From Streptomyces sp. GS7 (GTDB lineage Bacteria > Actinomycetota > Actinomycetes > Streptomycetales > Streptomycetaceae), in the NCBI RefSeq assembly GCF_009834125.1, contig NZ_CP047146.1, forward strand, positions 124,001 through 188,000: a stretch of DNA of 64,000 bases, given 5' to 3'. The position numbers and the translations under genes were made by a program. The notes under the pieces were generated by a model. The model saw nothing but the letters and a program-made list of their open reading frames with translations. It ran no database searches and was not told where the DNA came from. Position 1 is the stretch's first letter. The number at the start of each line of letters is the position of its first letter. Positions 27,721 through 51,245 of the stretch are shown here, one piece after another.

Positions 27721-29208
27721 TCAGCCCCCCGCACCGGGGCCCGGCCCCGGCGCCAGACCCAGGTGCGCACGCAGCGCACGGGTGTCGGTCTTTCCGTTCG
27801 CGGTGAGCGGGAAGTGGCCCACGACATGGACGGCGTTGGGCTGTTCGTACTCCGCGAGATGCGGGGCGAGCCGCCGGCGCCAGGTGAGCGGGGCCTCGTC
27901 ATCGGGGTCCGCGACGACGAAGTGCAGCGCGCTGCCCCGGCGTTGGTCCGGGACGGCCAGTACCTTCACCGGCCGGCCGCAGGCTTCGGCGCGGCGCTCC
28001 AGGCTCTCGGGGTAGAGCGTGAAGCCCAGCCGGTGCACGGCCTGGTTGCGGCCCACGACCCGTACGATGCCGTCCGCGTCGACGCTGCCGAGATCGGCCG
28101 TCGGATACCAGGCGTCCGGGTCGACCGGTGCCGGCGAGCCGTCGTCCTGGAGGTAGCCCGCCATCAGCCCCGGGGAGCGCACCTCGATGCCGCCGAGTTC
28201 GCCGGGCGCGGCAGGAGTGCCGTCGGGGCGCAGCACGCGCAGCCGCACGCCGGGCAGGGGACGCCCGCAGCCGAGTGGTGCGTCGGGGGTGGCCAGCGCG
28301 ACATTGCCGAGTTCCGTCAGGCCGTAGCCGTCCAGCAGCGGGCGGCCCATCGCCGTGCGGAAGGACTCGGCCAGCGGGGCGGGCAGCGGGGCGCCCCCGA
28401 CACCCCAGATGCGGACGCCCGCGAGGCCGGCGCGCACCTCGGGGCGGCGGCGCAGCACGCCCAGAAGTGAGTGGTACGTGGACGGTGCGGCGTCGACGGA
28501 GGTGGCGCCGTGCGCCGCGGCCTGCTGCACGGCCGCGTCGATCCGCTGGTAGGGCGTGACCAGCAGGGTGCAACGGGCCAGCCACCACAGCAGGATGACG
28601 GAGAGCCCGTACTGGTGGGAGAAGGGCAGCAGCGGGGCGAGCACGTCGTCCGTGCGGTAGCCCATGGCCTGGATGGTGCGCCGCGAGTTGTCGAGCACGG
28701 CGCGGCCGGGCTTCACCACGCCCTTGGGGCGCCCGGTGGTGCCCGAGGACCAGAGGACGAGCGCGTCGGGCCGGTCGAACCAGCGGGTCAGGTCGACGGC
28801 GGCGCCCGGTGGCTGCGGGGCGTCCGCGGCGAGCCGGGGGTAGTGGACGACGCGGTGGGCGGGGAGGCCGGGCAGGGCCGTGGTGGCGTCGGCGGTGACC
28901 AGCCGGGCGGCGTGCGCCTGCCGGGCGGCGGCGCCCGCGTCGGCCGCGGAGAGGCGGTGGTCGAGCGGGATGAGGGAGGTGTCGAGGTGCATCAGGGCCA
29001 GCAGCGTCACGACGTAGTCGACGCTGTTGTCGCCCTGGACCAGCACCCGCTCGCCGGGCCGGACACCGAGTTCCCGTAAGGCGTGCGCGGCGGCGTGGAC
29101 CCGGCGGTCGAGGGTGTGGCCTTCCAGGCGGGCGGTGCCGTCGGCGCCGTCGACGAGGCGGGCGGCACCGACCGGAGGGGCGAGCGTGGTGGCGATGGTG
29201 TCGGTCAT
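27721..29208 (-). CDS. AMP-dependent acyl-ACP/CoA ligase (starter activation)
   Basis: 495 residues. The ATG at 29208 overlaps the dehydratase stop by ATGA, so a longer upstream frame is rejected. ANL-superfamily motifs in order: SSGTTGRPKGVVKPG (A3, phosphate loop, about 170), YGLTELGNVAL (A5), WYPTADLGSVD (A7), VVGRNQ (A8) and LTANGKTDTRAL with the A10 lysine. It adenylates a carboxylic acid and passes it to CoA or, given the ACP gene 1.6 kb away, to ACP. It is the last gene of the operon FabI-like, MaoC-like, ligase. The substrate is probably the starter acid of the acyl chain; this is inference. Confidence 0.85.
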   Translation of the reverse strand: MTDTIATTLAPPVGAARLVDGADGTARLEGHTLDRRVHAAAHALRELGVRPGERVLVQGDNSVDYVVTLLALMHLDTSLIPLDHRLSAADAGAAARQAHAARLVTADATTALPGLPAHRVVHYPRLAADAPQPPGAAVDLTRWFDRPDALVLWSSGTTGRPKGVVKPGRAVLDNSRRTIQAMGYRTDDVLAPLLPFSHQYGLSVILLWWLARCTLLVTPYQRIDAAVQQAAAHGATSVDAAPSTYHSLLGVLRRRPEVRAGLAGVRIWGVGGAPLPAPLAESFRTAMGRPLLDGYGLTELGNVALATPDAPLGCGRPLPGVRLRVLRPDGTPAAPGELGGIEVRSPGLMAGYLQDDGSPAPVDPDAWYPTADLGSVDADGIVRVVGRNQAVHRLGFTLYPESLERRAEACGRPVKVLAVPDQRRGSALHFVVADPDDEAPLTWRRRLAPHLAEYEQPNAVHVVGHFPLTANGKTDTRALRAHLGLAPGPGPGAGG

Positions 29209-29690
29209 GGGTGCTCCGATCCCGTGGGGTCGAGGGGGTGCCGGTCCGGTCCCCGGGGGACGGCGGCGGGGCACAGCAGCGAGGCGGTCGTGGTGGCCAC
29301 CCAGGTGCCGTCGGGGGCCAGGAACTCGCTCTCCAGGGTGAGGAGTCGGCGCCCGGCGAGAGGGGTGCTGCCGGTGACGCGGACGGTGGCGTGCAGGGTG
29401 TCGCCGGCGTGGACGGGGCGGCCGTGGCGCAGGGTCTGGGCGCGGTGCACGGCGCCGTCGGCGGTGCATCCGGCCCCCTCGCGCAGCAGGCGGTCCTCCG
29501 CGTCGGCGGTGAGGGTGGCGAGGTAGCCGGGCGGCGCGACGACGTCAGGGTGGCCGAGGGCGCGGGCGGCGGCCGGGTCGGTGTGCGCGGGGTGCGCGGT
29601 GCCGCCGAGCGCCGCGGCGTAGGCGGCCACCCGGGCCCGCTCGATGACGTACGTACGGCGCACGGCCCCGCCCGCCGGTCTCCCGTCCAT
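29205..29690 (-). CDS. MaoC/HadA-type (FAS1-like) 3-hydroxyacyl dehydratase
   Basis: 161 residues. Single hot-dog domain of the MaoC N-terminal (HadA/HadC) kind: TYVIERARVAAYAAALGGTAHPAHTDP is followed by VVAPPGYLATL (motifs in parts) and a C-terminal LLTLESEFLAPDGTWVATTTASLL strand pair. HadA-type subunits usually lack the full Asp-His dyad and work with a HadB-type partner. I do not see the R-hydratase Asp/His pair, so this may be a structural or divergent dehydratase. It dehydrates or binds the 3-hydroxyacyl-ACP intermediate. It starts 6 bp after the enoyl reductase stop. Confidence 0.75.
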   Translation of the reverse strand: MDGRPAGGAVRRTYVIERARVAAYAAALGGTAHPAHTDPAAARALGHPDVVAPPGYLATLTADAEDRLLREGAGCTADGAVHRAQTLRHGRPVHAGDTLHATVRVTGSTPLAGRRLLTLESEFLAPDGTWVATTTASLLCPAAVPRGPDRHPLDPTGSEHP

Positions 29691-29696
29691 CGGCGG

Positions 29697-30467
29697 TCAG
29701 TCGCCGATCATGTGGTGGCCGCCGTCCGCGTGCACGATCTCGCCGGTGGTGGCGGGCAGCCAGTCCGACAGCAGCGCCAGGCAGGTCCGGGCGACCGGCT
29801 CCGCGTTCTGCGGGTCCCAGCCCAGCGGCGCGCGCCCCGCCCAGCCCTTCTCGAAGGACGGGCCGTCGCCGCCGATACCGCTCGCGGCCAGGGTGCGCAG
29901 CGGCCCCGCGGCGACGAGGTTGGCCCGGATGCCCTGGCCGCCGAGGTCGCGCGCCAGATAGCGCGAGCACGCCTCCAGCCCGGCCTTGGCGACGCCCATC
30001 CAGTCGTAGCCGGGCCAGGCGCGGGAGGCGTCGAAGTCCACGCCGACGACGGAGGAGCCGGGCCGCAGCAGCGGGCGGCAGGCCCTGGTCAGCGCCACCA
30101 GGGAGTACGTGGAGGTGTGCAGCGCCTGGGCGACATCGCTCCAGGGGGCGGTGAGGAAGCCGCCGTCCAGACAGCCGGCGGGGGCGTTGGCGACCGAGTG
30201 CAGGACGCCGTCGAGCCCGTCGAGGTGGGCGCCGACCCGGTCGGCGAGGGCGGCGAGCTGCGCCTCGTCGGTGACGTCCAGTTCCACGACGGGGGGTTCC
30301 TCCGGCAGCCGGCGGGCGAGCCGGGCCACGAGGGACGGCCGGCCGTAGGCGGTCAGCACGATGCGGGCGCCCTCCCGCTGGGCGAGCCGGGCCACGGCGT
30401 AGGCGATCGAGCTCTCCGTGATCACGCCGGTGATCAGCAGCCGCTTTCCGTCGAGCAGACCACTCAT
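29697..30467 (-). CDS. FabI/InhA-type enoyl-ACP reductase
   Basis: 256 residues from the ATG at 30467 with GGAGG upstream; an in-frame extension to 30524 lacks support. An SDR fold with LLITGVITESSIAYAVARL, the FabI-specific dinucleotide motif (GVITESSIAY rather than GxxxGxG). LHSVANAP and the catalytic Y-x6-K (YDWMGVAKAGLEA) follow, then IRANLVAAGPLRTLAASGI. It reduces the enoyl intermediate with NAD(P)H. First gene of the minus-strand operon, divergent from the ACP gene. Confidence 0.88.
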   Translation of the reverse strand: MSGLLDGKRLLITGVITESSIAYAVARLAQREGARIVLTAYGRPSLVARLARRLPEEPPVVELDVTDEAQLAALADRVGAHLDGLDGVLHSVANAPAGCLDGGFLTAPWSDVAQALHTSTYSLVALTRACRPLLRPGSSVVGVDFDASRAWPGYDWMGVAKAGLEACSRYLARDLGGQGIRANLVAAGPLRTLAASGIGGDGPSFEKGWAGRAPLGWDPQNAEPVARTCLALLSDWLPATTGEIVHADGGHHMIGD

Positions 30468-30785: not shown

Positions 30786-31031
30786 ATGACACGCGAAGAG
30801 ATCGTCGCTCAGCTCGCCGAGATCCTGAACGAGGTGGCCGGCGTCGTGCCGACCGAGGTGACCGAGGAGAAGTCCCTGGTCGAAGAACTCGATGTGGACT
30901 CCCTGGCGATGGCCGAGGTCATCGTCGTCGCCGAGGAGCGCTTCGGCGTCGAACTCCCCGAAGAGGAGATGAAGGACATGCACACCGTTTTGGACATGGT
31001 GATCCGGGTGGAGAAGCGGCTGGCCTCCTGA
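30786..31031 (+). CDS. discrete acyl carrier protein
   Basis: 81 residues from the ATG at 30786 (AAGAGAGGTGA upstream). It is acidic throughout and four-helical, with the phosphopantetheine serine in ELDVDSLAMAEV (Ser about 38). Family length is normal. As a stand-alone ACP next to ligase, reductase and phosphopantetheinyl transferase genes, it is the likely carrier of the growing acyl chain and the acyl donor for the GNAT enzyme. It has its own promoter region with cluster operators. Confidence 0.93.
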   Translation: MTREEIVAQLAEILNEVAGVVPTEVTEEKSLVEELDVDSLAMAEVIVVAEERFGVELPEEEMKDMHTVLDMVIRVEKRLAS

Positions 31032-31374: not shown

Positions 31375-32175
31375 ATGCGGGGGGATGAGCCCTTCTGTGG
31401 CGCGCATACGCTCGACCGTGCGAACGAATCCGCCGAATCCTCCTGGTGGGAGGGTGGTTGGACGTCGGAACGGCAGGATGAATTAGCCGATGGTCGCCTG
31501 CACGTATTCTCGCCGGACGCCGCGGATATTGATCGGCCGGCCGCTTTGGCGGATTTCCTGGCGCGATTGCTGCAATGCTCCGCGGACGATATTTCCCTGA
31601 CCCGCGACGACTTCGGGCGCCCGGTCTCCGCCGCGCTGCCCGGGTACACCGGCTGGCCCCCCGGCGCCCGCCTCTGCCTCGCCCTCGGCGACGATCCCGG
31701 CCGCCGGCTGCTGGCCCTGGTCCGCGACCTCCCGGTGGCCCTCAGCGTCCACACCGTGCCCCGCGGCCCGGTCGGTGAACTGCTGCTCCCCTTCACCGCG
31801 CTGGAGCGCGAGTTCGTCCGCCGGGCCCCGGCCGAGCGGCGGGCGCGGCGGCTGGCCCGGCTGTGGACCCGCAAGGAGGCCGCCCTCCGGCTCACCGGCC
31901 GAGGCGGACTGGCCACCGCGGACGAGGTCGACGCGCTGGGCGGGGCGCGGGAGGCGGCCGGCACCGTCACCCTGCCGGCCTCCGTGGCGCGGCCCACGGC
32001 GGCCGCGTACGGCGGCGGCGCCCGCGCGAGCACCGCGCACGGCGGCCTCGCCTACGTACGGGAGCTGCCGGCCGGGCCGGACCGGGTGGCCTGCGCGGCC
32101 ACCGCCGCGCCGGTGCCCGGTGTACGGCTCTGGGGGCCGGCCGCCCTGGATTCGCCGCCCGTTCCCGGCAGTTGA
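31375..32175 (+). CDS. Sfp-like 4'-phosphopantetheinyl transferase 1
   Basis: 266 residues from ATG 31375 (GAGGGG just upstream); an ATG 20 codons earlier lacks a ribosome site. The C-terminal half has RLARLWTRKEAALRLTGRG, the W-(S/T)-x-K-E-A signature binding CoA and Mg2+. The upstream G-x-D-x-E motif is not recognisable: the corresponding stretch reads VALSVHTV, with Ser in place of the metal-binding Asp. It would convert the apo-ACP to holo-ACP. The missing Asp makes activity uncertain; a second such enzyme lies at the other end of the cluster. Confidence 0.75.
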   Translation: MRGDEPFCGAHTLDRANESAESSWWEGGWTSERQDELADGRLHVFSPDAADIDRPAALADFLARLLQCSADDISLTRDDFGRPVSAALPGYTGWPPGARLCLALGDDPGRRLLALVRDLPVALSVHTVPRGPVGELLLPFTALEREFVRRAPAERRARRLARLWTRKEAALRLTGRGGLATADEVDALGGAREAAGTVTLPASVARPTAAAYGGGARASTAHGGLAYVRELPAGPDRVACAATAAPVPGVRLWGPAALDSPPVPGS

Positions 32176-32202: not shown

Positions 32203-33480
32203 CTACGGCATGATCACCGCATGCGGGTCCGGCCCCTCGCCGCCGCGTGCGCCGGCGCTCAGTTCGCGCCAGGTCTCCAGCGCAAGCCGGAACGCGCCGG
32301 CCTTCTCGTAGCCCGCCGCGGCGGCCTTGAAGCCGTCCTCGGCGGCTGCCGCGTCGCCGGCGGCGCGGTGTGCGCGCGCTCGGTAGAGCGTGCACCGGGC
32401 GCGGTCCAGCGGGGACAGCTCACCGGTTTCGAGGTCGATCGCGGCGGCGTGCCCGGCAGCCGCCCCGGGGTCGCCGTGGCGCAGCGCGGCGGCGGTCTCC
32501 AGCACGGCGAGCCAGCTCCGCGTGCCGGGCGTGGTGACCAGCGACGCCGCCTGCCGGGCGCGCTCCATGAGGGCGTCCGCGGCGTCCTCGGGGCCCGCGG
32601 TGAGCGCCAGCAGCGTACGGGAGCGGGCCAGCCGGAGCCGGAGCCGTACGCCGTCCGTCTCGGCGATCAGCTCGTCCGCCTCGGCGAGGAGCGCCAGCGC
32701 CCGGTCGGGGTGGCCGCCCAGATACTGCGCACCGGCCGCCGCCCACAGGGCGCTCGCCCGCAGTTCGCCCGCGGGCAGCGGCGCGACCTCCGCCCGCAGC
32801 GGCGCCCCGAGTTCTTCGGCGCGGCCCCACTCGCCGCTGTCCACGGAGGCGGAGAGCAGCGCGACCTGCGCCTGGGCCCGCTCCGGGCGGCCCGGCTCCA
32901 GCTCGCCGGTGACCCGTACGGCCTCCTCGGCGAAGCGGACCCCGTCGGAGAGCCGGCCGGCGGTGCGCAGCAGCTGGGCCAGCTCGATGGCGACCCGGGC
33001 GTGCAGGACGGGCGCGGAGCGGGTGAGCGGGTCGTCCAACAGCCGGCGCAGCGCCGCCTCGTGGCGGGCGGGATCGTCGAGCCGGCCGAGGACCGTGGCC
33101 AGCTCCCAGCGCGCCTCCCAGCGGACCTCGTCCTGGTCGGCGCCGTCGGCCTGCTCCACCACGGACTCCAGCTGGCGCAGCGCCGCGGACCAGTCGCCGG
33201 CCAGCTGGCTGGCCCGGGCGGCGACCAACTGGCCCACCAGGCCGAGGCGTTGGGCGAGCCGGTCGGCGGGCTGCTCGGTGGCGCTCAGCGCCTCGACGGT
33301 GGTGCCCAGGCGCTGCGCGATGGACCGCGCGATCTTGGTGCCGGGGATCCTGCGGCCGTTCTCGACCAATGAGACGTAGCTGGGGGAGAGGTCGTCGCCG
33401 GCGAGATCCCCCTGGGACAGACCCTGAGCGCGCCGGACCTCCCGCACTCGCTTCCCGAAGGCAGGCTGCTCAATCGTCAA
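32203..33480 (-). CDS. XRE helix-turn-helix regulator with TPR domain (1)
   Basis: About 425 residues from a TTG at 33480; the frame stays open to a GTG at 33567, which would add 29 residues. The start is not certain. The paralogue at 39064 begins its HTH about nine residues in, which favours the later start. HTH: FGKRVREVRRAQGLSQGDLAG, DDLSPSYVSLVENGRRIPG. Residues about 85-420 are repeated helix pairs of TPR type (WEARWELATVLGRL, ALWAAAGAQYLGG). This architecture resembles quorum-responsive or pathway-specific activators. It is convergent with the first phosphopantetheinyl transferase gene. Confidence 0.8.
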   Translation of the reverse strand: MTIEQPAFGKRVREVRRAQGLSQGDLAGDDLSPSYVSLVENGRRIPGTKIARSIAQRLGTTVEALSATEQPADRLAQRLGLVGQLVAARASQLAGDWSAALRQLESVVEQADGADQDEVRWEARWELATVLGRLDDPARHEAALRRLLDDPLTRSAPVLHARVAIELAQLLRTAGRLSDGVRFAEEAVRVTGELEPGRPERAQAQVALLSASVDSGEWGRAEELGAPLRAEVAPLPAGELRASALWAAAGAQYLGGHPDRALALLAEADELIAETDGVRLRLRLARSRTLLALTAGPEDAADALMERARQAASLVTTPGTRSWLAVLETAAALRHGDPGAAAGHAAAIDLETGELSPLDRARCTLYRARAHRAAGDAAAAEDGFKAAAAGYEKAGAFRLALETWRELSAGARGGEGPDPHAVIMP

Positions 33481-33848: not shown

Positions 33849-35132
33849 ATGAGCTCCGCTCCCGCATGGCCGACCGTGGCCGCCGAGCCGAAGGAGGACG
33901 ACCGCACCGAAGGCCGTGGTGAGGGCGGTGCCGAAGGCGGCAGCGCGCGCCTGCGGGCGGCGGCGTTACGCCGGGTCCGGGACTTCCTGGCGGCGGACGG
34001 CGGCGTCGTGCACGAGCTGCTGTGCGAGATCTCCACCCACCGCGCCGCGCGCTACGAGATCGAGTCGACCATCGCCACCCTCGACGGGGCCCTGGACGAG
34101 GTGGCCGCCCACCGGCCCGGCCGGGTGCCGCGGCTCGCCGCGTTCATGCCGTCGAACGTCATCCTCTACTCCTACGCCCTCTACCTCCTCGTCCCCGCGC
34201 TCTACACCGACGAGCTGGTCTTCCGCCCCTCCAGCCGGGTCAAGGACCAGATGCGGCGGCTGCACGCGCTGCTCGCCGAGCGGCACCGGCTGCCGATCAC
34301 CCTCAGCGGCGCCAGCCAGCGGGAGTTCCTGCGGGAGGAGGTGCTGCCCGCCGACGTCGTGGTGTTCACCGGCGCCTACCGCAACGCCGAGCAGATCCGC
34401 GGCCAGCTCTCCCCCGGGCAGCTCTTCCTCTTCCTCGGATCGGGCGTCAACCCGTTCGTCGTCGCCCCCGGGGCCGATGTCGCGCAGGCCGCCCGGGACG
34501 CGATCGCCATCCGGGTGCTGAACACCGGTCAGGACTGCCTGGGCCCCGATCTGTTCACGGTCCACGAGTCGCTGCTCGGCCCGTTCGTGGACGCCCTCGT
34601 CGGCGAGCTGAAGGGGCTGCGCTACGGCCCGTACTCCGACCCGGACGCCGACTTCGGGCCGATCTTCTACGAGGACGCGTTGGAGGAGGCGGCCCAGTTC
34701 CTCGCCCGCAACCGGGCCGGCATCGTGCACGGCGGGCATGTCGACTTCCGCACCCGGCGGGTAGACCCCACGGTCGTCGTCGGCGAGGAGGTGAGCCCGC
34801 GCACGCACGTACCGGAGTTCTTCGCGCCGATCTTCAACGTGGCCGGCTACCGCGACCAGGACGCCCTGGCCGCGACCCTGACCACCGGCATGTTCACCGA
34901 ACGCGCCCTGGGCTCCAGCGTCTACGGCGACGCCCCCGAACTGGTCGCGGCGCTGCGCCGGCGGACCACCGTCACCGTCGACACCACGCTGCTGTCCATC
35001 GACAACGGCAACGCGCCCTTCGGCGGCTACGGCCGGATGGCCAACTACATCTCCGACGGCCAGGAGCTGCGCGCCGAGCCGGTGCTGATCTCGCAGGCCG
35101 TCGCCGCGCACCGCCCGGGAGCCGCCCGGTGA
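33849..35132 (+). CDS. aldehyde dehydrogenase-family protein with altered active site
   Basis: 427 residues. ALDH fold: the catalytic cysteine is in VLNTGQDCLGPD (about residue 233) and the C-terminal block is DNGNAPFGGYGRMANYI. The usual ELGG motif with the general-base Glu reads FLGSG here, so that Glu is missing. Without it, hydrolysis of the thioacyl intermediate is doubtful, and transfer to another acceptor such as CoA is an alternative. The first about 30 residues are Glu/Gly-rich and disordered. The stop overlaps the ThDP-enzyme start by GTGA, so the two act together, perhaps making the starter acid or thioester from an aldehyde. Confidence 0.78.
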   Translation: MSSAPAWPTVAAEPKEDDRTEGRGEGGAEGGSARLRAAALRRVRDFLAADGGVVHELLCEISTHRAARYEIESTIATLDGALDEVAAHRPGRVPRLAAFMPSNVILYSYALYLLVPALYTDELVFRPSSRVKDQMRRLHALLAERHRLPITLSGASQREFLREEVLPADVVVFTGAYRNAEQIRGQLSPGQLFLFLGSGVNPFVVAPGADVAQAARDAIAIRVLNTGQDCLGPDLFTVHESLLGPFVDALVGELKGLRYGPYSDPDADFGPIFYEDALEEAAQFLARNRAGIVHGGHVDFRTRRVDPTVVVGEEVSPRTHVPEFFAPIFNVAGYRDQDALAATLTTGMFTERALGSSVYGDAPELVAALRRRTTVTVDTTLLSIDNGNAPFGGYGRMANYISDGQELRAEPVLISQAVAAHRPGAAR

Positions 35133-42285: not shown

Positions 42286-42972
42286 GTGCAGGGACGACTG
42301 GTGACCTTGGAATGGCCCGGCGACGACGACTGGGCGGCGATCGCCTCCTGGCTGCGGCCCGGCTCGCCGGCGGCCGTGATGAGCGGCGACTGGGAACTGC
42401 TGGGCGCCGCCGACGTCGAACAGGCCAACCGCTCCGGGCGGGTCAGCCACATGGTGATCCGCACCCACGACGGCGAACGCATCGGCACCGTCAGCTACCA
42501 GCGCACCGGCCGGATCGGCGGCTACTCCGTCGGCGGCGCCATCGGCACCCCGGAACTCTGGCGCCGCGGCTACGGCGCGGAGGCCGTGGTCCTCCTCGTC
42601 GACTATCTCTTCCACCAGCTCGACGCGCACCGCGTCCAGGTCACCACCGCCGCCTACAACAAGAGCATCATCCGGCTGATGACCAAGACCCAGTTCGTGG
42701 TCGAGGGCATCCTGCGGGACCACTGCTACCTCGACGGCGCCTACCACGACGCGATCGTGTGGGGGATCCTCCGCGACGAGCACTACGCCTCGCTCAAGCC
42801 CAGCGCGACGAACCGCGTACTGGCCGTCGGGCTGGAGGACTTCGTGACCGAGGACGACAAGGTCCAGGCCCGCGAGATCCTCGCCGGGCACCTGGCGGAA
42901 ACCGGCCGCAGCGCGGTCGCGGCCTTCCTCGACACGGCCGCGTCCGCCGGGAACGAGCGGGGTGCCGCATGA
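42286..42972 (+). CDS. GNAT acyltransferase, probable acyl-ACP:peptide ligase
   Basis: 228 residues; GTG at 42286 after AGGAGGGAA. RimJ/RimL-like GNAT fold at about 15-175: IGTVSYQRTGRIGGYSVGG, IGTPELWRRGYGAEAVVLLVDY (acyl-donor loop RRGYGA) and HRVQVTTAAYNKSIIRL. An extra C-terminal helical segment (about 180-228) is absent from simple acetyltransferases. In goadvionin and lipoavitide pathways a GNAT enzyme joins an ACP-bound acyl chain to the N-terminus of the processed peptide. This gene overlaps LanKC by ATGA and follows the ketosynthase, so the same role is likely here. Confidence 0.82.
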   Translation: MQGRLVTLEWPGDDDWAAIASWLRPGSPAAVMSGDWELLGAADVEQANRSGRVSHMVIRTHDGERIGTVSYQRTGRIGGYSVGGAIGTPELWRRGYGAEAVVLLVDYLFHQLDAHRVQVTTAAYNKSIIRLMTKTQFVVEGILRDHCYLDGAYHDAIVWGILRDEHYASLKPSATNRVLAVGLEDFVTEDDKVQAREILAGHLAETGRSAVAAFLDTAASAGNERGAA

Positions 42973-45686
42973 GGGACGGCGCCGAGAGCTTCGCCCTGGC
43001 CGACCGCACCTTCTTCGACTGGCCCGGCAACTGGGACCTGGAGGCCACCCGCTTCCCGGCTCCGCCGCTCCCCGAAGGCTGGACGTACGACGAGAACGAA
43101 GCCTGGTCCTTCTGCCGCCCGCCCCGGGACGAGAACCGCCAACTCCCCGACCAGGGCTGGAAGATCCACGTCAGCGCGGCCCCTGAGGACGCCGAGCGCA
43201 CCCTCGCCGACGTCGCCGCCTACTGCGTCCGGCACGGCCTGCTCTTCAAGTACCTCAAGAGCGCCAACGTCCTGCGCGCGCTGAGCCGCAAGTACGCCCA
43301 GCGCTCCTCCGCCGGCAAGCTGCTGACCGTCTACCCCGTGGACGAGGCGGACCTGGCCCGCACCCTCGAAGGGCTGGACGCCGTCGTCGGCGGCCGTCCC
43401 GGACCGTACGTCCTGACCGACCTGCGCTTTCGCGAGGGCCCGCTGTACGTCCGCTACGGCGGCTTCCGCACCCGGTACATGGAAGACGCCGAGGGCGGCG
43501 GCGATCTCGTCACGGCCGTGCGGCGCCCCGACGGCACCCTGGAGGCGGACCGCCGCACCCCCGTCTTCCGCACCCCCGACTGGGTCCCGCTCCCGGACGT
43601 CCTCAAGGACTCGCTGGCCGCCCGCCAGGCCGTGGACGACTTCCCCTACCGGATCACCGGAGCGCTGCACTTCTCGCACGGCGGCGGCGTCTACCGCGCC
43701 GAGCCGGCCGGGGAGCACGCCCTCGGGGCGGGAGCGCGCAGCGTCGTCCTCAAGGAGGGCCGTCCGTACTCCGGTACGGACGGCGTCGGCCGGGACGCGG
43801 TCGCCCGGCTCGCCCACGAGCACCGGATCCTGACCACGCTCGCCGGGCTGCCCGGCATCCCCCGCACCTTCGGCACCTTCGAGGTCCGCGACCACCTGTT
43901 CCTGGTCCTGGAGGACGTCGAGGGGAAGGACTTCCAGTCCTGGCTGGCCGGCGTCTACCCGCTGACCGTGCCCGAGCCCGACGAGGCGGCCGTGGCCGCC
44001 CACCGGGACCGCGCGCTGGCCCTGTTCGCCCGGATCGAGGCGCTGGTCGCCTCGGTCCACGGACGCGGCATCCGGATCGGCGACCTGCACCCGGGCAACT
44101 TCATCATCCAGCCCGGCGACATCCCGGTCCTCCTGGACTTCGAGGTGGCCGACGCGATCGACCGGGCAACCCCCAGCAGCCTCGGCGCACCGGGCTTCCA
44201 CCGGGCCGACGCCACCGGTGCGGACGGCGACCGCTACGCACTCGCCGCCATCGCCCTGTGGCTGTTCCTGCCGCTCGCCGCGCTCGGCGGCCTGTCCCCC
44301 GACAAGGCGCCCGCGCTGCTCGACATCGCGGCCCGCCGGTTCGGCCTCCCGGAGGACCTGGTGGCCCGGCTGGCCGGGCAGCTCGCCCCGGCAGCTCAGG
44401 CAGGGCCGTCCGAAGGCGCCCCGCCGTGCGCCCTGGTCAGCGCCCCCGGCCCGTTCCCGGCCCCGGACCTGATCGCCTCCATCGGGCGCGGGCTGCGCGA
44501 CAGCGCCACCCCGCACCGCACGGACCGGCTGCACCCCGGGGACTTCGCCCAATTCGCCGAGGGCGGCGCGGGGTTCGCGCACGGCGCCGCCGGCGTCCTG
44601 TGGGCCCGGCACACCGTGCTCGGGGAACGCGACGCGCACCACGTCGCCTGGCTGCGGGCCGCCGCCGACCGGGTACCGGCCGAGCGGATCGGCTTCTACG
44701 ACGGGCTGCACGGCATCGCGTACGTCCTCGCGGAGCTGGGCGACGAGGAAGGGGCGCGCCGCGCGCTGGACCGGGCCGGCGGGCAACTCGACGTACGGCA
44801 CTGCCCCAGCCTCTACCGCGGACTGTCCGGCGCCGGCCTCAACCTGCTGCACTTCGCGGACCGTTGGGCGGACGACACGGCACGCGCGACGGCCCTGCGA
44901 CTGGCCGACCGGGTCACCGACCGGCTGGCCGACGCCCTCCGGGAGCCGGTCGAGTACCAGCGGCGGACCGGTTCCCGGCACGCCGGCGGGCTGATGTACG
45001 GCTGGTCCGGACCGGCGCTGTTCCTGCTCCGCGCCCATCAGGCCACCGGCGACACCGGCCTGCTGGACCAGGCGGTCTGGGCCGTCCACCGCGACCTCGA
45101 CCGCTGTGCGTCAGGACCGCAGGACACGCTCCAGGTCGACGAGGGGTTCCGGCTCCTGCCCTATCTGGACAACGGCAGCGCGGGCATCGCCCTGGTGGCG
45201 GCCGAACTCCTCGGCCACCGCGACGACGCCCGGATCCGTGCGGCCCTGCCCGGGCTGCTGCGGGCCTGCTCCGCCGACTTCGTCATCGAATCGGGGCTGT
45301 GGGGCGGACGCGCCGGACTGATCGGCACCCTCGCCGCCCTGCGCGAGTGGGTCCCGCTGCCCGCGGCGGACGCCGAGCGGCAGCTCCACCGCCATCTGGC
45401 CAATCTCCAGCAGCACGCCATGAGGCTGAACGGCGCGACGGTCTTCCCCTGTGACGGCCGGGCCCGGATCTCCATGGACGTGGCCACCGGCGGGGCCGGC
45501 GTACTGCTGGCCCTCGCCGCCGCCGAACGGGGCACCCGGCTGCTCCCGTTCCTCACCGACTCGCGGTCCGCCGCGGCCGTTCACCCGGCCGTCCCGGAGC
45601 GCGCCCGCGGCGCCCACGGCGCCGCGACCCCCGCCGTCCCGTCCGGGCCGGAGGGCACTGCGGACAACGGAAGGGAGGTGTCGTAA
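42969..45686 (+). CDS. class III lanthipeptide synthetase LanKC
   Basis: 905 residues. N-terminal lyase-like domain (about 1-220) with LFKYLKSANVLRALSRKY and SSAGKLLTVYP, the class III signature. Kinase domain (about 235-490): VVLKEGRPYSG (ATP lysine), IRIGDLHPGNFII (catalytic loop) and VLLDFEVA (metal Asp). C-terminal LanC-like domain (about 525-860): YDGLHGIAYVL, YRGLSGAGLNLL, GLMYGWSGPALFLL and ESGLWGGRAGLIG, without the Cys-Cys-His zinc ligands of LanC/LanL, hence class III. It phosphorylates Ser/Thr of the precursor, eliminates phosphate and closes thioether/carbacyclic rings. The first precursor ATG follows its stop directly. Confidence 0.95.
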   Translation: MRDGAESFALADRTFFDWPGNWDLEATRFPAPPLPEGWTYDENEAWSFCRPPRDENRQLPDQGWKIHVSAAPEDAERTLADVAAYCVRHGLLFKYLKSANVLRALSRKYAQRSSAGKLLTVYPVDEADLARTLEGLDAVVGGRPGPYVLTDLRFREGPLYVRYGGFRTRYMEDAEGGGDLVTAVRRPDGTLEADRRTPVFRTPDWVPLPDVLKDSLAARQAVDDFPYRITGALHFSHGGGVYRAEPAGEHALGAGARSVVLKEGRPYSGTDGVGRDAVARLAHEHRILTTLAGLPGIPRTFGTFEVRDHLFLVLEDVEGKDFQSWLAGVYPLTVPEPDEAAVAAHRDRALALFARIEALVASVHGRGIRIGDLHPGNFIIQPGDIPVLLDFEVADAIDRATPSSLGAPGFHRADATGADGDRYALAAIALWLFLPLAALGGLSPDKAPALLDIAARRFGLPEDLVARLAGQLAPAAQAGPSEGAPPCALVSAPGPFPAPDLIASIGRGLRDSATPHRTDRLHPGDFAQFAEGGAGFAHGAAGVLWARHTVLGERDAHHVAWLRAAADRVPAERIGFYDGLHGIAYVLAELGDEEGARRALDRAGGQLDVRHCPSLYRGLSGAGLNLLHFADRWADDTARATALRLADRVTDRLADALREPVEYQRRTGSRHAGGLMYGWSGPALFLLRAHQATGDTGLLDQAVWAVHRDLDRCASGPQDTLQVDEGFRLLPYLDNGSAGIALVAAELLGHRDDARIRAALPGLLRACSADFVIESGLWGGRAGLIGTLAALREWVPLPAADAERQLHRHLANLQQHAMRLNGATVFPCDGRARISMDVATGGAGVLLALAAAERGTRLLPFLTDSRSAAAVHPAVPERARGAHGAATPAVPSGPEGTADNGREVS

Positions 45687-45773
45687 ATGACCATCATGGA
45701 CCTGCAGGGCATCGAGGTGCCCGCCGAGCGTGAGGCTCAGGCGCTGGGCTCGACCATCAGCACCGGCTGCTGA
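45687..45773 (+). CDS. lanthipeptide precursor 1 (core GSTISTGC)
   Basis: 28 residues, starting at the base after the LanKC stop; GGGAGG lies inside the last LanKC codons. The leader has the class III recognition helix pattern IMDLQGIEVPAEREAQAL (residues 3-20), with I-x-x-L-Q. The predicted core is Gly21 to Cys28, GSTISTGC. Ser22, Ser25 and Cys28 give S-x2-S-x2-C, suited to a labionin- or avionin-type ring ending at the C-terminal Cys. Thr23 and Thr26 could also be dehydrated. Too short for ordinary gene finders. Confidence 0.9.
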   Translation: MTIMDLQGIEVPAEREAQALGSTISTGC

Positions 45774-45865: not shown

Positions 45866-45952
45866 ATGTCGATCATGGACCTGCAGGGCATCGAGGTGCC
45901 CGCCGAGCGTGAGGCCCAGGCGCTGGGCTCCACCGTCAGCACCGGTTGCTGA
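45866..45952 (+). CDS. lanthipeptide precursor 2 (core GSTVSTGC)
   Basis: 28 residues from ATG 45866 with AAGGGAGG upstream. Identical to precursor 1 except Ser2 for Thr2 and Val24 for Ile24. The same leader motif IMDLQ and core GSTVSTGC. It is separated from precursor 1 by 92 bp that hold a perfect hairpin. Confidence 0.9.
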   Translation: MSIMDLQGIEVPAEREAQALGSTVSTGC

Positions 45953-46029: not shown

Positions 46030-46116
46030 ATGACCATCATGGACCTTCAGGGCATCGAGGTGCCGGCCGAGCGTGAGGCCCAGGCTCTCGGCTCCACCGT
46101 CAGCACGGGCTGCTGA
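46030..46116 (+). CDS. lanthipeptide precursor 3 (core GSTVSTGC)
   Basis: 28 residues from ATG 46030. Differs from precursor 1 only by Val24 for Ile24, and has the same core as precursor 2. The 36 bases spanning its ribosome site and first codons are identical to those of copy 1, including the GTCGTAA that is the LanKC stop context in copy 1. It is therefore a recent duplicate of copy 1. A hairpin follows at 46123. Confidence 0.9.
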   Translation: MTIMDLQGIEVPAEREAQALGSTVSTGC

Positions 46117-46122
46117 CACGGC

Positions 46123-46259: not shown

Positions 46260-48050
46260 ATGGGGAAGGACCCGCACCACGGCGGGAAGACCGGCGCACC
46301 GCTCTCCCTCTGCGTCATCGGCTGCGGCCCGCGCGGCGCCTCCATCGTGGAGCGCATCCTCGCCAACGTGCCCGCCCTGTACGGCGACCGCCCGCTGGAC
46401 CTGCACGTCGTCGACCCGTACCCGCCGGGCGCCGGCCGCACCTGGCGCACCGACCAGCCGGGCCTGCTGTGGATGAACTCCGCCGCCGACCAGGTCACCA
46501 TGTACCCCGACGAGAGCGTCGCCTGCGCCGGACCACCGCGCCCCGGCCCCACCACCGCCGGGTGGCTCGACGCCCCGCTGCACGACGGCGCCTATGCCGC
46601 CCGCCGCGACCAGGGCCGCTATCTGCGCAGCTTCTTCGCCGAGGTGACCGGCGCGCGGCCCGCGTCGGTACGGCTGCACGTCCACCGGGCGCGCGCCGTC
46701 GACCTGTTGCGCACCGCCCCGTACGGCCGCCCGGGACGCCAGCGGGTGGTCCTCGACTCCGGCCGGACCGTCCTCGCCGACCGGGTGGTCCTCGCCCAGG
46801 GCCATGTGGACACCCTCGCCGCCCCCGCCCCGCCCGGACTGACCCGGATCGGCCCCGGCCCCGCCGACCCGGACGCGCTGGACCGCATACCGGCCGGGGC
46901 GCCCGTCGTCGTCCGCGGCCTCGGCCTGGTCTTCGTCGACTGCCTGGCCCTGCTGACGGAGGGCCGCGGCGGCCGCTTCTCCGGGGCGCCCGGCGGCTCG
47001 CTGCGCTATCTGCCGTCCGGCCGCGAACCCCGCCTGTACGCGGGCTCCCGCCGCGGTGTACCGCTGCCCCCGAAGCCGTCGGCCACCGCGCCCGCGGCGC
47101 CCGACGGCGGCCTCCGCTTCGCCACGCCCGGCGCCTGCCGCGCCGCGCTGGCCCGCCCCGGCGCGTCCTTCGGCCGCGACGTCTGGCCGCTGGTGCTGGC
47201 CGAACTGGCCTGGCACCACTACCGCGCCCTGTTCGCCGCCGCGCCCGATCGCACCTGCATGACCTGGCAGGACTTCGACGCCCAGTACGCCCTGCTGTTC
47301 ACCGACGCCGGCCGGCTGGCCAAACTGGCCCGCGCGGCGGTCCCCGACCCCGCCGACCGCCTCGACCTCGACCGGCTGGCCGACCCGCTGGCCGGCCGCC
47401 GCTTCACCGGCGGCGACGACCTCCAGCGGCAGCTGCGCGCCCACCTGGCCGCGACCCTGCGCCGCCGTACGGGACCGGCGGCCGGCCCCGAACTCGCCCT
47501 GGTGGACGGCCTCCGCCGGACCGGCGAGGTCGTCGAGGAGCTGTGGCGCTCCGGCGACCTGGACGAGGCCTCGGTCGCCGACGCGCTGCGCCGCTTCGCC
47601 CTCGGTACGTACCTCAGCTCGGGCCCGCCGCCGCTGCGCGCCCGGCAGCTGCTGGCGCTGGCGGAGGCGGGCGTGGTGACGTTCGTGGGCCCCGGCATGC
47701 GCGTGGAGACCGGGCCGGCCGGCTTCCGGGCGCTCAGCCCCGCCGTCCCCGGCGCCGTCCACGAGGCGGCCGTCCTCCTGGACGCCCGGCTGGCGCCCGC
47801 CGGTCCGGACCGGGTCGCCGACCCGCTGCTGCGCGCGCTTGCGGCCCGCGGTGAGCTGGCACCGGACCCCGCCGGAGAGGACGGCGGGCCGCCGCGGCTG
47901 TCCGGTGCGGAGCTGCACCCGGTCGCCGCGGACGGCACCGTGCACCGCGACCGGATCGTGGCCGGCCCGGCCCAGTTCCCGCGCCCGCGGGCCAACGCCG
48001 TGGCCTTCCGCCAGAACGACGCCATCGCCCGGCGGTTGCTGGCCCGCTGA
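46260..48050 (+). CDS. large FAD/NAD(P)-binding protein, role unknown
   Basis: 596 residues; GGGAGGACGGGGAGG before ATG 46260. N-terminal Rossmann motif CVIGCGPRGASIVERIL (G-x-G-x2-G) and HVVDPYPPGAGRTWRTDQP, the pattern of the FAD_NAD_binding_9 family. Further blocks are WMNSAADQVTMYPDES, VVLAQGHVDT, VVVRGLGLVFVDCLALLT (second dinucleotide motif), and C-terminal RANAVAFRQNDAIARRLL. No substrate is known for this type. As the gene directly after the precursors, it may be a redox tailoring enzyme, for example acting on the C-terminal Cys in place of a missing LanD decarboxylase. That is speculation. Confidence 0.75.
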   Translation: MGKDPHHGGKTGAPLSLCVIGCGPRGASIVERILANVPALYGDRPLDLHVVDPYPPGAGRTWRTDQPGLLWMNSAADQVTMYPDESVACAGPPRPGPTTAGWLDAPLHDGAYAARRDQGRYLRSFFAEVTGARPASVRLHVHRARAVDLLRTAPYGRPGRQRVVLDSGRTVLADRVVLAQGHVDTLAAPAPPGLTRIGPGPADPDALDRIPAGAPVVVRGLGLVFVDCLALLTEGRGGRFSGAPGGSLRYLPSGREPRLYAGSRRGVPLPPKPSATAPAAPDGGLRFATPGACRAALARPGASFGRDVWPLVLAELAWHHYRALFAAAPDRTCMTWQDFDAQYALLFTDAGRLAKLARAAVPDPADRLDLDRLADPLAGRRFTGGDDLQRQLRAHLAATLRRRTGPAAGPELALVDGLRRTGEVVEELWRSGDLDEASVADALRRFALGTYLSSGPPPLRARQLLALAEAGVVTFVGPGMRVETGPAGFRALSPAVPGAVHEAAVLLDARLAPAGPDRVADPLLRALAARGELAPDPAGEDGGPPRLSGAELHPVAADGTVHRDRIVAGPAQFPRPRANAVAFRQNDAIARRLLAR

Positions 48051-48072: not shown

Positions 48073-48801
48073 TCACCCCCGCAGGGTGACCCCGTGCTGC
48101 TGCGCCAGGATCGCCGCCTGCACCCGGCTGCGCAGGTTCAGCTTCGACAGGATCCGGCTGGTATGCGTCTTGACGGTGCCCTCGGCCAGGTTCAGGGTCT
48201 GGGCGATGGCGCTGTTGGCCAGCCCCCGCCCGATGCAGGCCAGCACCTCCAACTCCCGCTTGGTGAGGGTGTCCAGGGTCTGCGCGGCCCCGTCCGGCAG
48301 CGAGGGCCGCGACGACGGCGCCTGGAGGGCGAACTCGGAGATCAGCCGCCGGGCGATCGCCGGGGTCAGGAAGCCCTCCCCGTGCGCCACCTCCCGTACG
48401 GCGCCGACCAGGACGGCCGGTTCCGCGTTCTTGAGGATGAAGCCGCCGGCCCCGGCCCGCAGCGCCCCGAAGATGTACTCGTTGAGGTCGAAGGTGGTCA
48501 GCACCAGGACCTCCGCGAGACCGCGCTCGACGATCCTGCGGGTGGCGGCGACACCGTTGAGCAGCGGCATCTGCACATCCATCAGCACGACGTCGGGCCT
48601 CAGTTCGCCGGCCATCCGCACCGCCGCCTCACCGTCGCCGGCCTCGCCGACGACCGTGATGCCCGGGTCGGTCTGGAGGACGAGGACCAGACCGGAACGC
48701 ACCGCCGCCTGGTCGTCGGCGACCAGCACCCGAATGTCCGGCCGGCTCTCCTCAGGGGCCTGGGCACGCTCCGCCACCGGTTTCTCCACCGCATACTCCA
48801 C
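48073..48801 (-). CDS. NarL/LuxR-type response regulator
   Basis: 242 residues, GTG start at 48801. Receiver domain (about 20-140): VLVADDQAAVRSGL, phospho-acceptor Asp in VVLMDVQMP, TTFDLNEY and the Lys in GGFILKNAE. LuxR-type HTH (about 175-235): LTKRELEVLACIGRGLANSAI and TVKTHTSRILSKL. It pairs with the kinase at 49001-50272, with 199 bp between them. The cluster position and a LiaF-like protein nearby suggest an envelope-stress pair. Confidence 0.92.
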   Translation of the reverse strand: MEYAVEKPVAERAQAPEESRPDIRVLVADDQAAVRSGLVLVLQTDPGITVVGEAGDGEAAVRMAGELRPDVVLMDVQMPLLNGVAATRRIVERGLAEVLVLTTFDLNEYIFGALRAGAGGFILKNAEPAVLVGAVREVAHGEGFLTPAIARRLISEFALQAPSSRPSLPDGAAQTLDTLTKRELEVLACIGRGLANSAIAQTLNLAEGTVKTHTSRILSKLNLRSRVQAAILAQQHGVTLRG

Positions 48802-48825
48802 TTCTGATCACCGTCCAGGAACTCG

Positions 48826-48900
48826 GGACTCGGACACCCGGCGCTCGGACACCCGGGACTCGGACGCAGAGCGCTCGGACACACAGGACTGCGGGACGCG
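48826..48900. repeat. 15-bp tandem repeats between response regulator and kinase genes
   Basis: Five adjoining 15-mers: GGACTCGGACACCCG, GCGCTCGGACACCCG, GGACTCGGACGCAGA, GCGCTCGGACACACA and a degenerate fifth. GGACTC and GCGCTC starts alternate, so the true unit may be 30 bp. No gene is supported in the gap 48802-49000. Confidence 0.75.
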
Positions 48901-49000
48901 CTCCCGCAGGACGCGCCCCCCAAGGACGCGGACCCCGGTCGGCGCGGCCGGGCAGCGGCACCCGCCGGCACCCGCACGTCGGCCAACACCCGCCCGCCCA

Positions 49001-50272
49001 TCAGGAGTTCTGACCCAACGGGAGCACCGCGCGGACCCGCCAGCGGCCGGGGGCCGACCGGTCGGGGCCCGCGTCGAAGACGCCGCCGACCAGCGTGGCC
49101 CGCTCGGACATCCCGGCGAGCCCGGCGCCGGCCCCGGCGGTCGCCGGATCCCCGGGGCGCCGCTGCCGGGCGGGCACGTCCGGGCGGGCCAGCGGGCTCT
49201 CGACGGAGATGGTCAGCTGCTCGGCGCCGGTCTCGCAGCGGATCCGCACCCGCCCGGCCGCGGCGTGCTTGAGGCAGTTGGTCAGCGCCTCCTGCACGAT
49301 GCGGTACGCGGTCACCTCGATCACCGACGACACCTCGGGGAAGCTCTCGGGGAACTCGGTGTGCAGCGTCAGCTCCGCCGCGGCGGCGGCGGGCCGGGCC
49401 TGTTCGACCAGCGCCCCCAGCGCGTTCAGCTGCGGCCGGTCCCAGTCGTCGTCCACCGCCCGGTCGGAGCGCAGCAGCACCACCATGCGCCGCATCTCGG
49501 CCAGCCCCTGCACGCTGTTCTCGCGGATCACCGCCAGCGCCCGCAGCACCGGATCCTCCTCGTCCGCCCCGCCGCCCCGGTCCTTCCGGCCGCCGTGGGC
49601 CTCCTGGAGGGACAGCACCGCGCTGGAGTGGATGGCGATGGCGCTGAGGTGGTTGGCGACCAGGTCGTGCAACTCCCGTGCCATCCGGGTGCGTTCGGTC
49701 TGGAGCACGGTCTTGCGGTCCAGCTCCGCCAGCCGGTTGATCTGCGCCGCCCGCTGCCGCTCGGCGTCCGCCTGCTCCTTGTGGTTCCGTATCAACACCC
49801 CGGTCCAGACCGGGGAGATGAGCAGCAGCGCCACGATCAGCCCGGTCGTCACGCCCTCGGACCGGTCGCCGATGAAGAGGAAGACGACGGTGGCGGCCAT
49901 GGTCGCCGCGACGGTGCCGAACTGGAGCGCCCGGCACAGCCAGGGCGCCCCGTACAGCGCCGCCGCGTACAGCAGGTCGGTGTAGATCAGCACCGGCCCC
50001 AGCCCGCCGCTGGCCGCCGCTTCGAGGCTGACGGTCACGGTGCCCACGAGCACCGCGGCCAACGGCAGCACACTGCGGAAGGCGGTCGCCGCGCACAGCA
50101 CCAGCACCGGGAGGACGGCCTGCCATACGGGGATCTCGCCTCCCATCACCCGCGGCCCGCCCAGGACATACAGAATCAGGCAGCCGGCGAAGAAACCCAC
50201 CGCCATTCTGAGGTCACGGAGCGGTATGGGCGCGCGGCGCAGTTGCTTACTTGCGAAATGGCGTAACCACAC
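49001..50272 (-). CDS. NarL-family sensor histidine kinase
   Basis: 423 residues from the GTG at 50272. Five or six membrane segments in residues about 23-165 and little extracytoplasmic sequence, so it is an intramembrane-type sensor. HisKA_3 box: RMARELHDLVANHLSAIAIHSS (phospho-His within ELHD; motif written over 22 positions as ARELHDLVANHLSAIAIH). HATPase region near 330-415 includes AYRIVQEALTNCLKHA and GAGAGLAGMSERATLVGG. Cognate regulator is the next gene downstream. Promoter region has a CTACAT-N6-ATGTAG site. Confidence 0.92.
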   Translation of the reverse strand: MWLRHFASKQLRRAPIPLRDLRMAVGFFAGCLILYVLGGPRVMGGEIPVWQAVLPVLVLCAATAFRSVLPLAAVLVGTVTVSLEAAASGGLGPVLIYTDLLYAAALYGAPWLCRALQFGTVAATMAATVVFLFIGDRSEGVTTGLIVALLLISPVWTGVLIRNHKEQADAERQRAAQINRLAELDRKTVLQTERTRMARELHDLVANHLSAIAIHSSAVLSLQEAHGGRKDRGGGADEEDPVLRALAVIRENSVQGLAEMRRMVVLLRSDRAVDDDWDRPQLNALGALVEQARPAAAAAELTLHTEFPESFPEVSSVIEVTAYRIVQEALTNCLKHAAAGRVRIRCETGAEQLTISVESPLARPDVPARQRRPGDPATAGAGAGLAGMSERATLVGGVFDAGPDRSAPGRWRVRAVLPLGQNS

Positions 50273-50338: not shown

Positions 50339-50434
50339 CTACATCGAAGTATGTAGCCGGACATCAGCAGGAGGGATGACTCGAAGGCTCCGGAGGGCAT
50401 GCAAACCTAGGGCTGACTGTACCGATCGATGTAG
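50339..50434. promoter_or_regulatory. inverted CTACATCG sites between kinase and transferase genes
   Basis: CTACAT-CGAAGT-ATGTAG at 50339-50356 and a reverse copy CGATGTAG at 50427-50434. The same CTACATCGAA occurs upstream of the LiaF-like gene at 38727. A binding site of the local response regulator is a reasonable guess. They lie in the 256-bp divergent gap 50273-50528. Confidence 0.5.
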
Positions 50435-50528
50435 GCGAAATAGGGGGAGCACGAGTCGCCCGCCGATTGAAGGCTGCCACTCACCGGTGCGGCCGAGCCA
50501 CCGCTCAACTGTGGAGGACGGAAAGTAC

Positions 50529-51245
50529 GTGGAAACGAACGCCGCTCTTCTCGATCTTGACCAGGAACTCCTCGACCAGGAACTCCCTGGCCAGTTCGGC
50601 CCCGATCAAGTCCCCGTCTTCGTGGTCCCCGTGGGGGACGTCCCCGAAGGGAACGACCCGCACCCCGGGTGCGGGAGCGAGTTGACCGCCGACAGCTGTC
50701 CGTCCCTCAACGGACACACCAGAGCCACCCTGGACGCCGCGTCCCGCGGCTGGCTGCTCGCCCGGCTCCCCGCCCGGGTCCGCGCCGCGATGACCGCCGC
50801 CGGCCACTGGGAGCTGTACGGCACCCGCGGCCTGCTGGTCGTGGCCTGCGGCGACGGTGCCCGCCAGATGGGCTTCTCCGTCGAATCCGTGCGCCGCGTA
50901 CGCCAGGAGACCTCCGCGCTGCACACCCCGTACGAGATCCTCACCGCGCGGGAGTCCCGCGCAGCCGCCGGCCGCCCGGCCGCCGAACGCGAACGCCTCA
51001 TCACCCGCTTCTGGGTGCGCAAGGACGCCGCCCTCCAGGCTGTCGGCCGCGGCCTCTCCCTCGCCCCCGAGCGCATCGAAGCCGGTTTCCCCGCCGACTC
51101 CGGCACGGTCGCCGTCCCCGGCCCCTGCGGCAGCGAAATCCCGGTCAGCGTCCGCAACTTCACCTTCTCCCCGGCGTACGAGTTCGCGGTGGCGACTCCG
51201 GAACCGCACTGTGTCACGCCCGCGTTCGCCTATTCCGTCAGGTAA
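50529..51245 (+). CDS. Sfp-like 4'-phosphopantetheinyl transferase 2
   Basis: 238 residues from the GTG at 50529 (GGAGG at 50513-50517). The CoA/Mg2+ signature is present as LITRFWVRKDAALQAVGRG (Glu to Asp in K-E-A). The upstream motif reads ARQMGFSVESV: the second acidic residue of G-x-D-x-E is kept but the Asp is Ser, as in transferase 1. The N-terminus is an acidic stretch with repeated DQELLDQELPGQ. It marks the right edge of the cluster and probably activates the ACP. Confidence 0.75.
   Translation: METNAALLDLDQELLDQELPGQFGPDQVPVFVVPVGDVPEGNDPHPGCGSELTADSCPSLNGHTRATLDAASRGWLLARLPARVRAAMTAAGHWELYGTRGLLVVACGDGARQMGFSVESVRRVRQETSALHTPYEILTARESRAAAGRPAAERERLITRFWVRKDAALQAVGRGLSLAPERIEAGFPADSGTVAVPGPCGSEIPVSVRNFTFSPAYEFAVATPEPHCVTPAFAYSVR

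Follow-up and report, generated by a model that had tools for sequence, protein, structure and literature searches.

The 64,000-nucleotide stretch of Streptomyces sp. GS7 analyzed here (hereafter the window), part of one 9.07-Mb contig, harbors genes for a class III lanthionine synthetase (LanKC), three short precursor peptides, a GNAT-family transferase and a set of separate fatty-acid enzymes, which together probably make a lipidated peptide. The cluster genes of interest span positions 27721-48050. A simple gene caller predicted 59 genes in the window, and coordinates and gene starts are given as that caller placed them. Of these, 39 were scanned against Pfam, with only a 94-aa gene (19292-19576) and the precursors excluded between 18.3 and 51.9 kb. 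Fifteen clusters were compared, 12 of window type and three diverged (in G045, G051 and G057; codes with G denote genomes and those with L denote loci of the comparison set), and the genome sample for co-distribution comprised 295 Streptomyces genomes. No published description of this cluster was found among the matches listed from the open-licence literature, as judged by title and the start of the abstract.

The LanKC (42969-45686, forward strand) matches the NCBIfam model lanthi_synth_III (NF038151) with 905 bits (cut-off 575) and RamC_N with 236 bits, and has LanKC relatives in the PDB. On the same strand, three precursors of 28 aa each were recognized from their sequence, with the core GSTISTGC in the first (45687-45773) and GSTVSTGC in the second (45866-45952) and third (46030-46116). 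Three precursors are present in each window-type cluster and one in each diverged cluster, and all 39 display the pattern S2-T3-x-S5-x-x-C8 in their last eight residues, the search pattern having demanded a leader motif and the final Cys and made no demand for Ser/Thr. As judged by sequence, this spacing is that of the lipolanthine octapeptides; the avionin of nocaviogua A, for example, lies at positions 2, 5 and 8 (PMC10435860). The GNAT gene (42286-42972, forward strand; PF13302, 50 bits), identified also by alignment and a genome scan, overlaps the LanKC gene by 4 bases and encodes a protein of 228 aa with an extension past the GNAT domain, to which, among solved structures, spermidine N-acetyltransferases are most similar in sequence. 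N-acylation of class III peptides by GNATs is known (PMC13060382), and the GNAT of this cluster is a candidate for the same role. A second LanKC of the genome (G000:C1:1867399-1869993, 41% identity) may be the SapB/RamC-type gene that Streptomyces usually carry.

Three of the fatty-acid genes lie on the reverse strand: an AMP-forming acyl ligase putatively activating the starter (27721-29208; PF00501, 192 bits), with an orthologue in all 15 clusters; a MaoC/HadA-like dehydratase (29205-29690; PF13452, 62 bits; HadA models under their cut-offs), present in 12/12 window-type and 1/3 diverged clusters; and an InhA/FabI-type enoyl-ACP reductase (ENR; 29697-30467; PRK07889, 392 bits, cut-off 299). 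The Asp of the Asp-His pair, which we take to be the motif of MaoC/HadA-like dehydratases, is not seen in the dehydratase sequence. The forward strand encodes an acyl carrier protein (ACP; 30786-31031; PRK00982, 94 bits, cut-off 84) with a DSL serine motif, a phosphopantetheinyl transferase (PPTase; 31567-32175; PF01648, 25.8 bits, cut-off 25) and a FabF-type ketosynthase (KS; 41003-42271; PRK07314, 476 bits, cut-off 387), which scores 491.5 with TIGR03150 (fabF), just below the cut-off of 493.75. The PPTase is found in all 12 window-type and two of the three diverged clusters, the third (G057) probably being cut by the fetched edge. The KS retains in 9/9 aligned rows the C-H-H residues that we take to be its catalytic triad, and chain extension is predicted to be of the β-ketoacyl-ACP synthase (KAS) II type. 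Gene calls and Pfam/NCBIfam matches thereby bear out the LanKC, overlapping GNAT, three precursors, ligase, MaoC-type, FabI-type, ACP and FabF-type genes named in a preliminary description of the window. Its statement that KAS III, a ketoreductase, a polyketide synthase (PKS) module and an acyltransferase are absent also agrees with the 39 scanned genes, among which none was found, though for KAS III this covers the scanned genes at 18.3-51.9 kb, the rest of the genome not having been searched. In one genome (G004), the ligase (L062 5766-7261) and KS (L010 7902-9235) genes are each split over two frames while the ThDP gene is intact, reflecting either a decayed cluster or sequencing errors.

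That description had overlooked two further genes and the family of a third, all on the forward strand, as well as the absence from the cluster of a LanD-type decarboxylase, which avionin requires, and an agmatinase-family gene of the sister clusters. The first of the three genes encodes an aldehyde-dehydrogenase-family enzyme (ALDH; 33849-35132; PF00171, 84 bits), and the second, overlapping it by 4 bases, a thiamine diphosphate (ThDP)-dependent enzyme (35129-36868; PF02776/PF00205/PF02775). The ALDH retains the cysteine of its GQDC motif. Where solved relatives have the Glu of an LELGG motif, presumably the general base, the alignment with them shows Phe; no Glu occurs in that motif in any cluster or cassette sequence inspected. 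In the ThDP enzyme, Gln52 replaces the catalytic Glu of BbmA and acetolactate synthase in 13/13 aligned rows. Sequence comparison puts BbmA structures, titled ThDP-dependent HKA synthase, nearest among solved proteins (234 bits vs 205 for an acetolactate synthase), while by structure an acetolactate synthase comes first, with BbmA tied; identity to BbmA is 26%, no higher than to several other rows, which span 20-26%. The third gene encodes an FAD/NADPH flavoprotein of the N-hydroxylase family (46260-48050; PF13454; PDB identifier 8cp2, 262 bits) and is found in 12/12 window-type and 0/3 diverged clusters.

Nine close loci, all from Streptomyces, were available for comparison, and eight share the order ALDH, ThDP enzyme, permease, LiaF-like protein, XRE regulator, DUF5708 protein, KS, GNAT, LanKC, precursors and flavoprotein; the ninth (L013) begins at a contig end with the permease as its first gene. 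A ligase orthologue is present in all nine genomes, the copies in G003 and G007 lying on another contig beside a contig end. LanKC (E<=1e-200), ligase (>=71% identity) and GNAT (E<1e-100) occur in an identical set of 9/295 genomes, and all remaining ligase matches at E<=1e-90 have <=50% identity. Assuming independent genomes, the chance of two identical nine-genome sets is about 2e-17, a figure that relatedness makes far too strong. Since the nine genomes are related, rearrangement provides better evidence than co-distribution. In the three diverged clusters, whose LanKC is 46-48% identical, the gene set is reshuffled yet still linked. For example, KS, LanKC, precursor, ENR, an agmatinase-family gene, MaoC and ligase of G057 are co-directional with overlaps or gaps of <=81 bases, including 4-base overlaps at KS/LanKC and agmatinase/MaoC; G051 has a similar run minus MaoC, and in G045 the agmatinase and ligase, found by tblastn, keep the order seen in G057 and G051. 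The 4-base KS/LanKC overlap is common to all three, with precursor, reductase and ligase following in the same direction. Ligase, ENR, ACP, ALDH, ThDP enzyme, KS, GNAT, LanKC and precursors are present in 15/15 clusters. Thus, the proposal that the acyl and peptide genes form one pathway, a hybrid of a fatty acid and a ribosomally synthesized and post-translationally modified peptide (RiPP), is well supported by the identical distribution and by the co-directional runs, and these reshuffled but linked clusters contradict an assignment of the acyl genes to another pathway, which the preliminary description had named as grounds for refutation.

The diverged loci (L048-L049 in G051, L044-L045 in G045 and L046-L047 in G057) represent another subtype among lipidated class III clusters, with the cores SSTVSSHC and ASTASNHC. 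That of G051 additionally encodes an R2-like oxidase, a P450, a VinK-like acyltransferase, a second KS, a glycosyltransferase, a PIG-L deacetylase and a NodS-like methyltransferase beside the agmatinase. A minimal locus in G103 (L115 2567-8014) comprises a LanKC (40%), a precursor with the core VSTASWHC (found by a pattern that demanded the serines and Cys), a GNAT and a DrrAB-like transporter, and no relatives of the fatty-acid genes were detected at E<=1e-5 in 55 kb.

Based on these genes, we hypothesize, with a probability of about 0.74, that the product of the cluster is a class III octapeptide, lipolanthine-like and N-acylated, formed with the help of a non-modular fatty-acid cassette. 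The LanKC would phosphorylate, dehydrate and cyclize the last eight residues, G-S-T-I/V-S-T-G-C, via Ser2, Ser5 and Cys8, and a protease encoded elsewhere would remove the 20-residue leader at the predicted cleavage site. The ligase would load a starter acid on the ACP, for whose activation the nearby PPTase would be responsible; extension with malonyl units of primary metabolism would fall to the FabF-type KS; a housekeeping FabG would reduce the product and the MaoC-type and InhA-type enzymes would finish the cycle. The GNAT would then move the ACP-bound acyl chain onto the freed amine of Gly1. The gene content, the co-inheritance, the co-directional runs of the sister clusters, the invariant core residues and the kept KS triad are observed; we infer the N-acylation, the cleavage site, the chain extension and the order of these steps. 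With less confidence, a 2-oxo acid might be turned into the starter by the ALDH/ThDP pair, arginine might provide its guanidino head, and the ring might keep its C-terminal carboxylate, the cluster encoding no LanD.

Both MicKC and MicD take part in avionin formation in microvionin, and Cys decarboxylation by LanD-type proteins depends on flavin (PMC10373908). A PF02441 search found no LanD-type decarboxylase at the cluster in 14/15 genomes, the nearest match lying 54 kb off in G146; in G003, a weak match of 26.5 bits lies beside the cluster, inside an insertion without counterpart in the window, and has weak CoaBC-model scores. All 15 genomes encode PF02441 proteins, and the matches in the host genome include a UbiX-type protein and one within a 525-aa frame that would fit CoaBC. 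A decarboxylase may act in trans; the alternative, which we favor at slightly better than even odds, is that the ring retains its C-terminal carboxylate. Given that the cluster encodes no LanD, membership in the avionin group is not established, and as the search for a decarboxylase gene at the cluster was negative, we do not assign the cluster to the lipolanthines. The earlier label of lipolanthine-like agrees with the class III LanKC, the core spacing and the presence of the GNAT and acyl genes.

The ligase, ALDH and ThDP enzyme are 71-78% alike between the window and diverged types, and therefore the starter is probably the same in both. The trio also recurs without LanKC matches in 7/20 contexts (L068, L069, L070, L075, L076, L081 and L083), all with a FabF-type KS, and the L083 cassette adjoins SbnA/SbnB diaminopropionate genes; a further such run (L050 10187-14409), in which no KS was seen, adjoins BioF-type and condensation-domain genes. 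It therefore appears to be a portable cassette, for which both starter supply and acyloin formation are possible, and no published description of clusters sharing it was found. An agmatinase-family gene (TIGR01230, 185 bits, cut-off 174) lies within the fatty-acid operon of all three diverged clusters. The earlier notion of a ligase-primed chain is incomplete in that the ligase is accompanied by the ALDH and ThDP enzyme and sister operons hold an agmatinase-family gene; given this company, an amino-acid-derived, perhaps guanidino, starter would be a more specific description. Goadvionins, as we understand them, carry a trimethylammonio head. Bis-methylated guanidino fatty acids are described in microvionin and nocavionin (PMC10373908), and in marginolactones an amidinohydrolase, an enzyme of this agmatinase kind, takes the amidino group off a guanidino chain, unmasking it (PMC4737276). 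The sister-cluster agmatinase, the alike starter enzymes and the microvionin and nocavionin heads suggest an arginine-derived guanidino head, kept in the window type, which we propose tentatively and at somewhat less than even odds.

The flavoprotein matches the L-aspartate N-hydroxylase of PDB identifier 8cp2 (CreE type) along its whole length and, in the alignment, keeps Arg13, Asn62, Arg577 and Arg593 of that enzyme. The Arg/Asn cluster of the aspartate entry chamber (residues as listed in PMC10404684) is not conserved in the 12 window-type sequences: Arg412 is replaced by Gly and Arg416 by Glu in all 12, Asn413 by Glu, Ala or Ser, and Arg266 by Lys, while Arg276 is lost and Arg409 is Arg or Gln. 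In the characterized enzyme, N413E abolished aspartate hydroxylation (PMC10404684). Judging from aligned residues in a region of low conservation, a cationic substrate would suit such a more acidic pocket. That all these features combine in a hitherto undescribed lipid-capped octapeptide, with a carboxylate-keeping S-x-x-S-x-x-C ring and an arginine-derived guanidino fatty acid made via a new ThDP/ALDH/ligase route and N-oxygenated by an aspartate N-hydroxylase relative re-tuned to a cationic substrate, seems improbable in this full form.

Other explanations of the same genes deserve consideration. The fatty-acid genes could make an independent lipid and merely neighbor a plain SapB-like class III cluster, as the regulators and permease that separate most acyl genes from LanKC in the window, and the ligase-ALDH-ThDP-KS cassettes elsewhere without LanKC matches, might indicate; yet LanKC, GNAT and ligase share the same 9/295 genomes, and LanKC, precursor, KS, ENR and ligase lie in one co-directional overlapping run in the diverged clusters, which makes this very improbable. 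The GNAT's kinship with spermidine N-acetyltransferases would allow it to acetylate the peptide or to give self-protection, with the ACP-bound acyl group going elsewhere, but its overlap with LanKC in the window, its company with acyl genes in 15/15 clusters and its extension past the GNAT domain render such a role improbable. A true lipolanthine, in which a LanD-type flavoprotein encoded elsewhere decarboxylates Cys8 to give avionin as in microvionin, would be consistent with the core spacing and the PF02441 proteins of all 15 genomes; we nevertheless consider it unlikely, as the host's own matches include UbiX-type and apparently CoaBC-fitting proteins and no clear cluster-linked decarboxylase is present in the 15 clusters, the G003 match being weak and within an insertion.

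The ALDH and ThDP enzyme might also act reductively, the ligase and ALDH making an aldehyde that the ThDP enzyme joins to a 2-oxo acid, yielding an acyloin or an alpha-hydroxy-beta-keto acid for the KS or GNAT. LuxE/LuxC-like systems convert acid to aldehyde by similar logic, and the retention of Cys and loss of Glu at the general-base position of the ALDH, the fusion or adjacency of ligase and ALDH in other loci and the HKA synthase titles of the nearest ThDP relatives by sequence all agree with it. On the other hand, structure places acetolactate synthase first with BbmA tying, the 26% identity to BbmA falls within the range of the other rows, and the trio comes with an ACP, a KS, an ENR and a dehydratase, which is what ordinary extension would call for; on balance we regard the reductive route as rather doubtful. 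A number of points weigh against the N-acylated octapeptide that we prefer, or against parts of it. The product is predicted from the genes, the HadA-like protein may require a partner and the KS could catalyze another reaction. As both ALDH and ThDP enzyme lack the usual Glu, a plain route from 2-oxo acid to acid is doubtful, and the HKA synthase relatives suggest C-C bond formation instead. Most window-type clusters have the same flanking genes, so their shared content partly reflects plain inheritance. As to the guanidino head, no agmatinase-family gene was found in the window or other window-type regions, the best window match of an arginine oxidase-like query has E=0.04, a nitrilase query gave no window match, and homologues of these two were absent at E<=1e-10 from the nine loci and other cluster regions. 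The ligase tree, moreover, does not nest the cluster ligases among those beside arginine-oxidase-like genes, their nearest group being L050/L068-L070/L076 (support 0.76); gene contexts were read for 21/33 non-orthologous ligase matches (20 and L050).

The likeness to goadvionins, which contain an octapeptide and depend on a GNAT, lies in an acyltransferase, here the predicted role of the GNAT, that couples a class III peptide with an acyl chain; their acyl part is a polyketide, unlike here, where no PKS module was found. The diverged clusters, with agmatinase and methyltransferase, may be closer to goadvionins than the window type. Lipoavitides share the combination of non-modular fatty-acid enzymes, class III peptide and acyltransferase. 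They reportedly have a KAS III starting the chain and a hydroxy-dimethylpentanoyl group, in contrast to the FabF-type KS, ligase, ALDH and ThDP enzyme here, where no KAS III was found. The arginoketides (azalomycin, desertomycin), to whose clusters loci were assigned by their gene content, also have a ligase from this broad family, a further resemblance being the agmatinase-family enzyme of the diverged clusters; they differ in using an arginine monooxygenase, an amide hydrolase and modular PKS (PMC10322714), and no homologue of either enzyme was found here. Lipolanthines (microvionin, nocavionin, nocaviogua) likewise have a class III synthetase, Ser2/Ser5/Cys8 spacing and a fatty-acid/polyketide acyl part (PMC10435860), with the N-terminal lipid attached by a GNAT (PMC13060382), a role predicted for the GNAT here. 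The absence of a cluster LanD, the separate KAS II-type enzymes, the ALDH/ThDP pair and, going by the descriptions of lipolanthines, the three near-identical precursors and the N-hydroxylase-family flavoprotein set this cluster apart. By analogy, the pathway would operate as the cited lipolanthine and lipoavitide systems do, being a variant with its own enzyme set.

Some members of the small known lipopeptide family that the cluster resembles are antibacterial. Few fatty-acid/RiPP hybrids are known, with just 12 lipolanthines in three groups counted in the introduction of a 2023 paper (PMC10435860), and the present family is conserved in at least 15 Streptomyces genomes. Its small separable enzymes could be reconstituted or swapped, and it offers a test of the way in which a class III ring is finished when the cluster encodes no LanD, besides a starter cassette common to other clusters and a homologue of N-hydroxylases whose substrate pocket is altered.

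Several regulatory and accessory genes are interspersed with or flank those discussed above. An XRE-type regulator (32203-33447, reverse strand; PF01381) is conserved in the core, being found in 14/15 clusters, including G057, where it is cut by the fetched edge; the exception is G003, whose contig breaks there and in which it was not seen. Confined to the window type are a second XRE-type regulator (39064-40308, forward strand; PF01381), a small DUF5708 protein (40403-40582, reverse strand; PF18969) and an ABC-2 permease with a DUF1707/LiaF-like protein (37092-38621, reverse strand; PF01061, PF08044, PF09922), the latter pair having no matches in the three diverged clusters and possibly serving export or self-protection. 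No ATP-binding partner of the permease (37092-37928) turned up in the scanned genes of the cluster. The two PPTases claimed earlier are both detectable and both weak, and the second, a PPTase-like gene (50529-51245, forward strand; PF01648, 24.2 bits, below the cut-off of 25), is a neighbor outside the conserved core, occurring in 9/12 window-type loci (some others being cut by edges) and having no match in the diverged clusters. A two-component system (48073-50206, reverse strand; PF00072/PF00196/PF07730), not seen in L013 or the diverged clusters, is probably also a neighbor and not part of the core. Between the flavoprotein and this system, one locus (L009 15102-21574) carries an insertion with a weak flavoprotein match and, by eye, a TetR-like regulator, and a smaller gap-filler occupies this position in L010 and L015.

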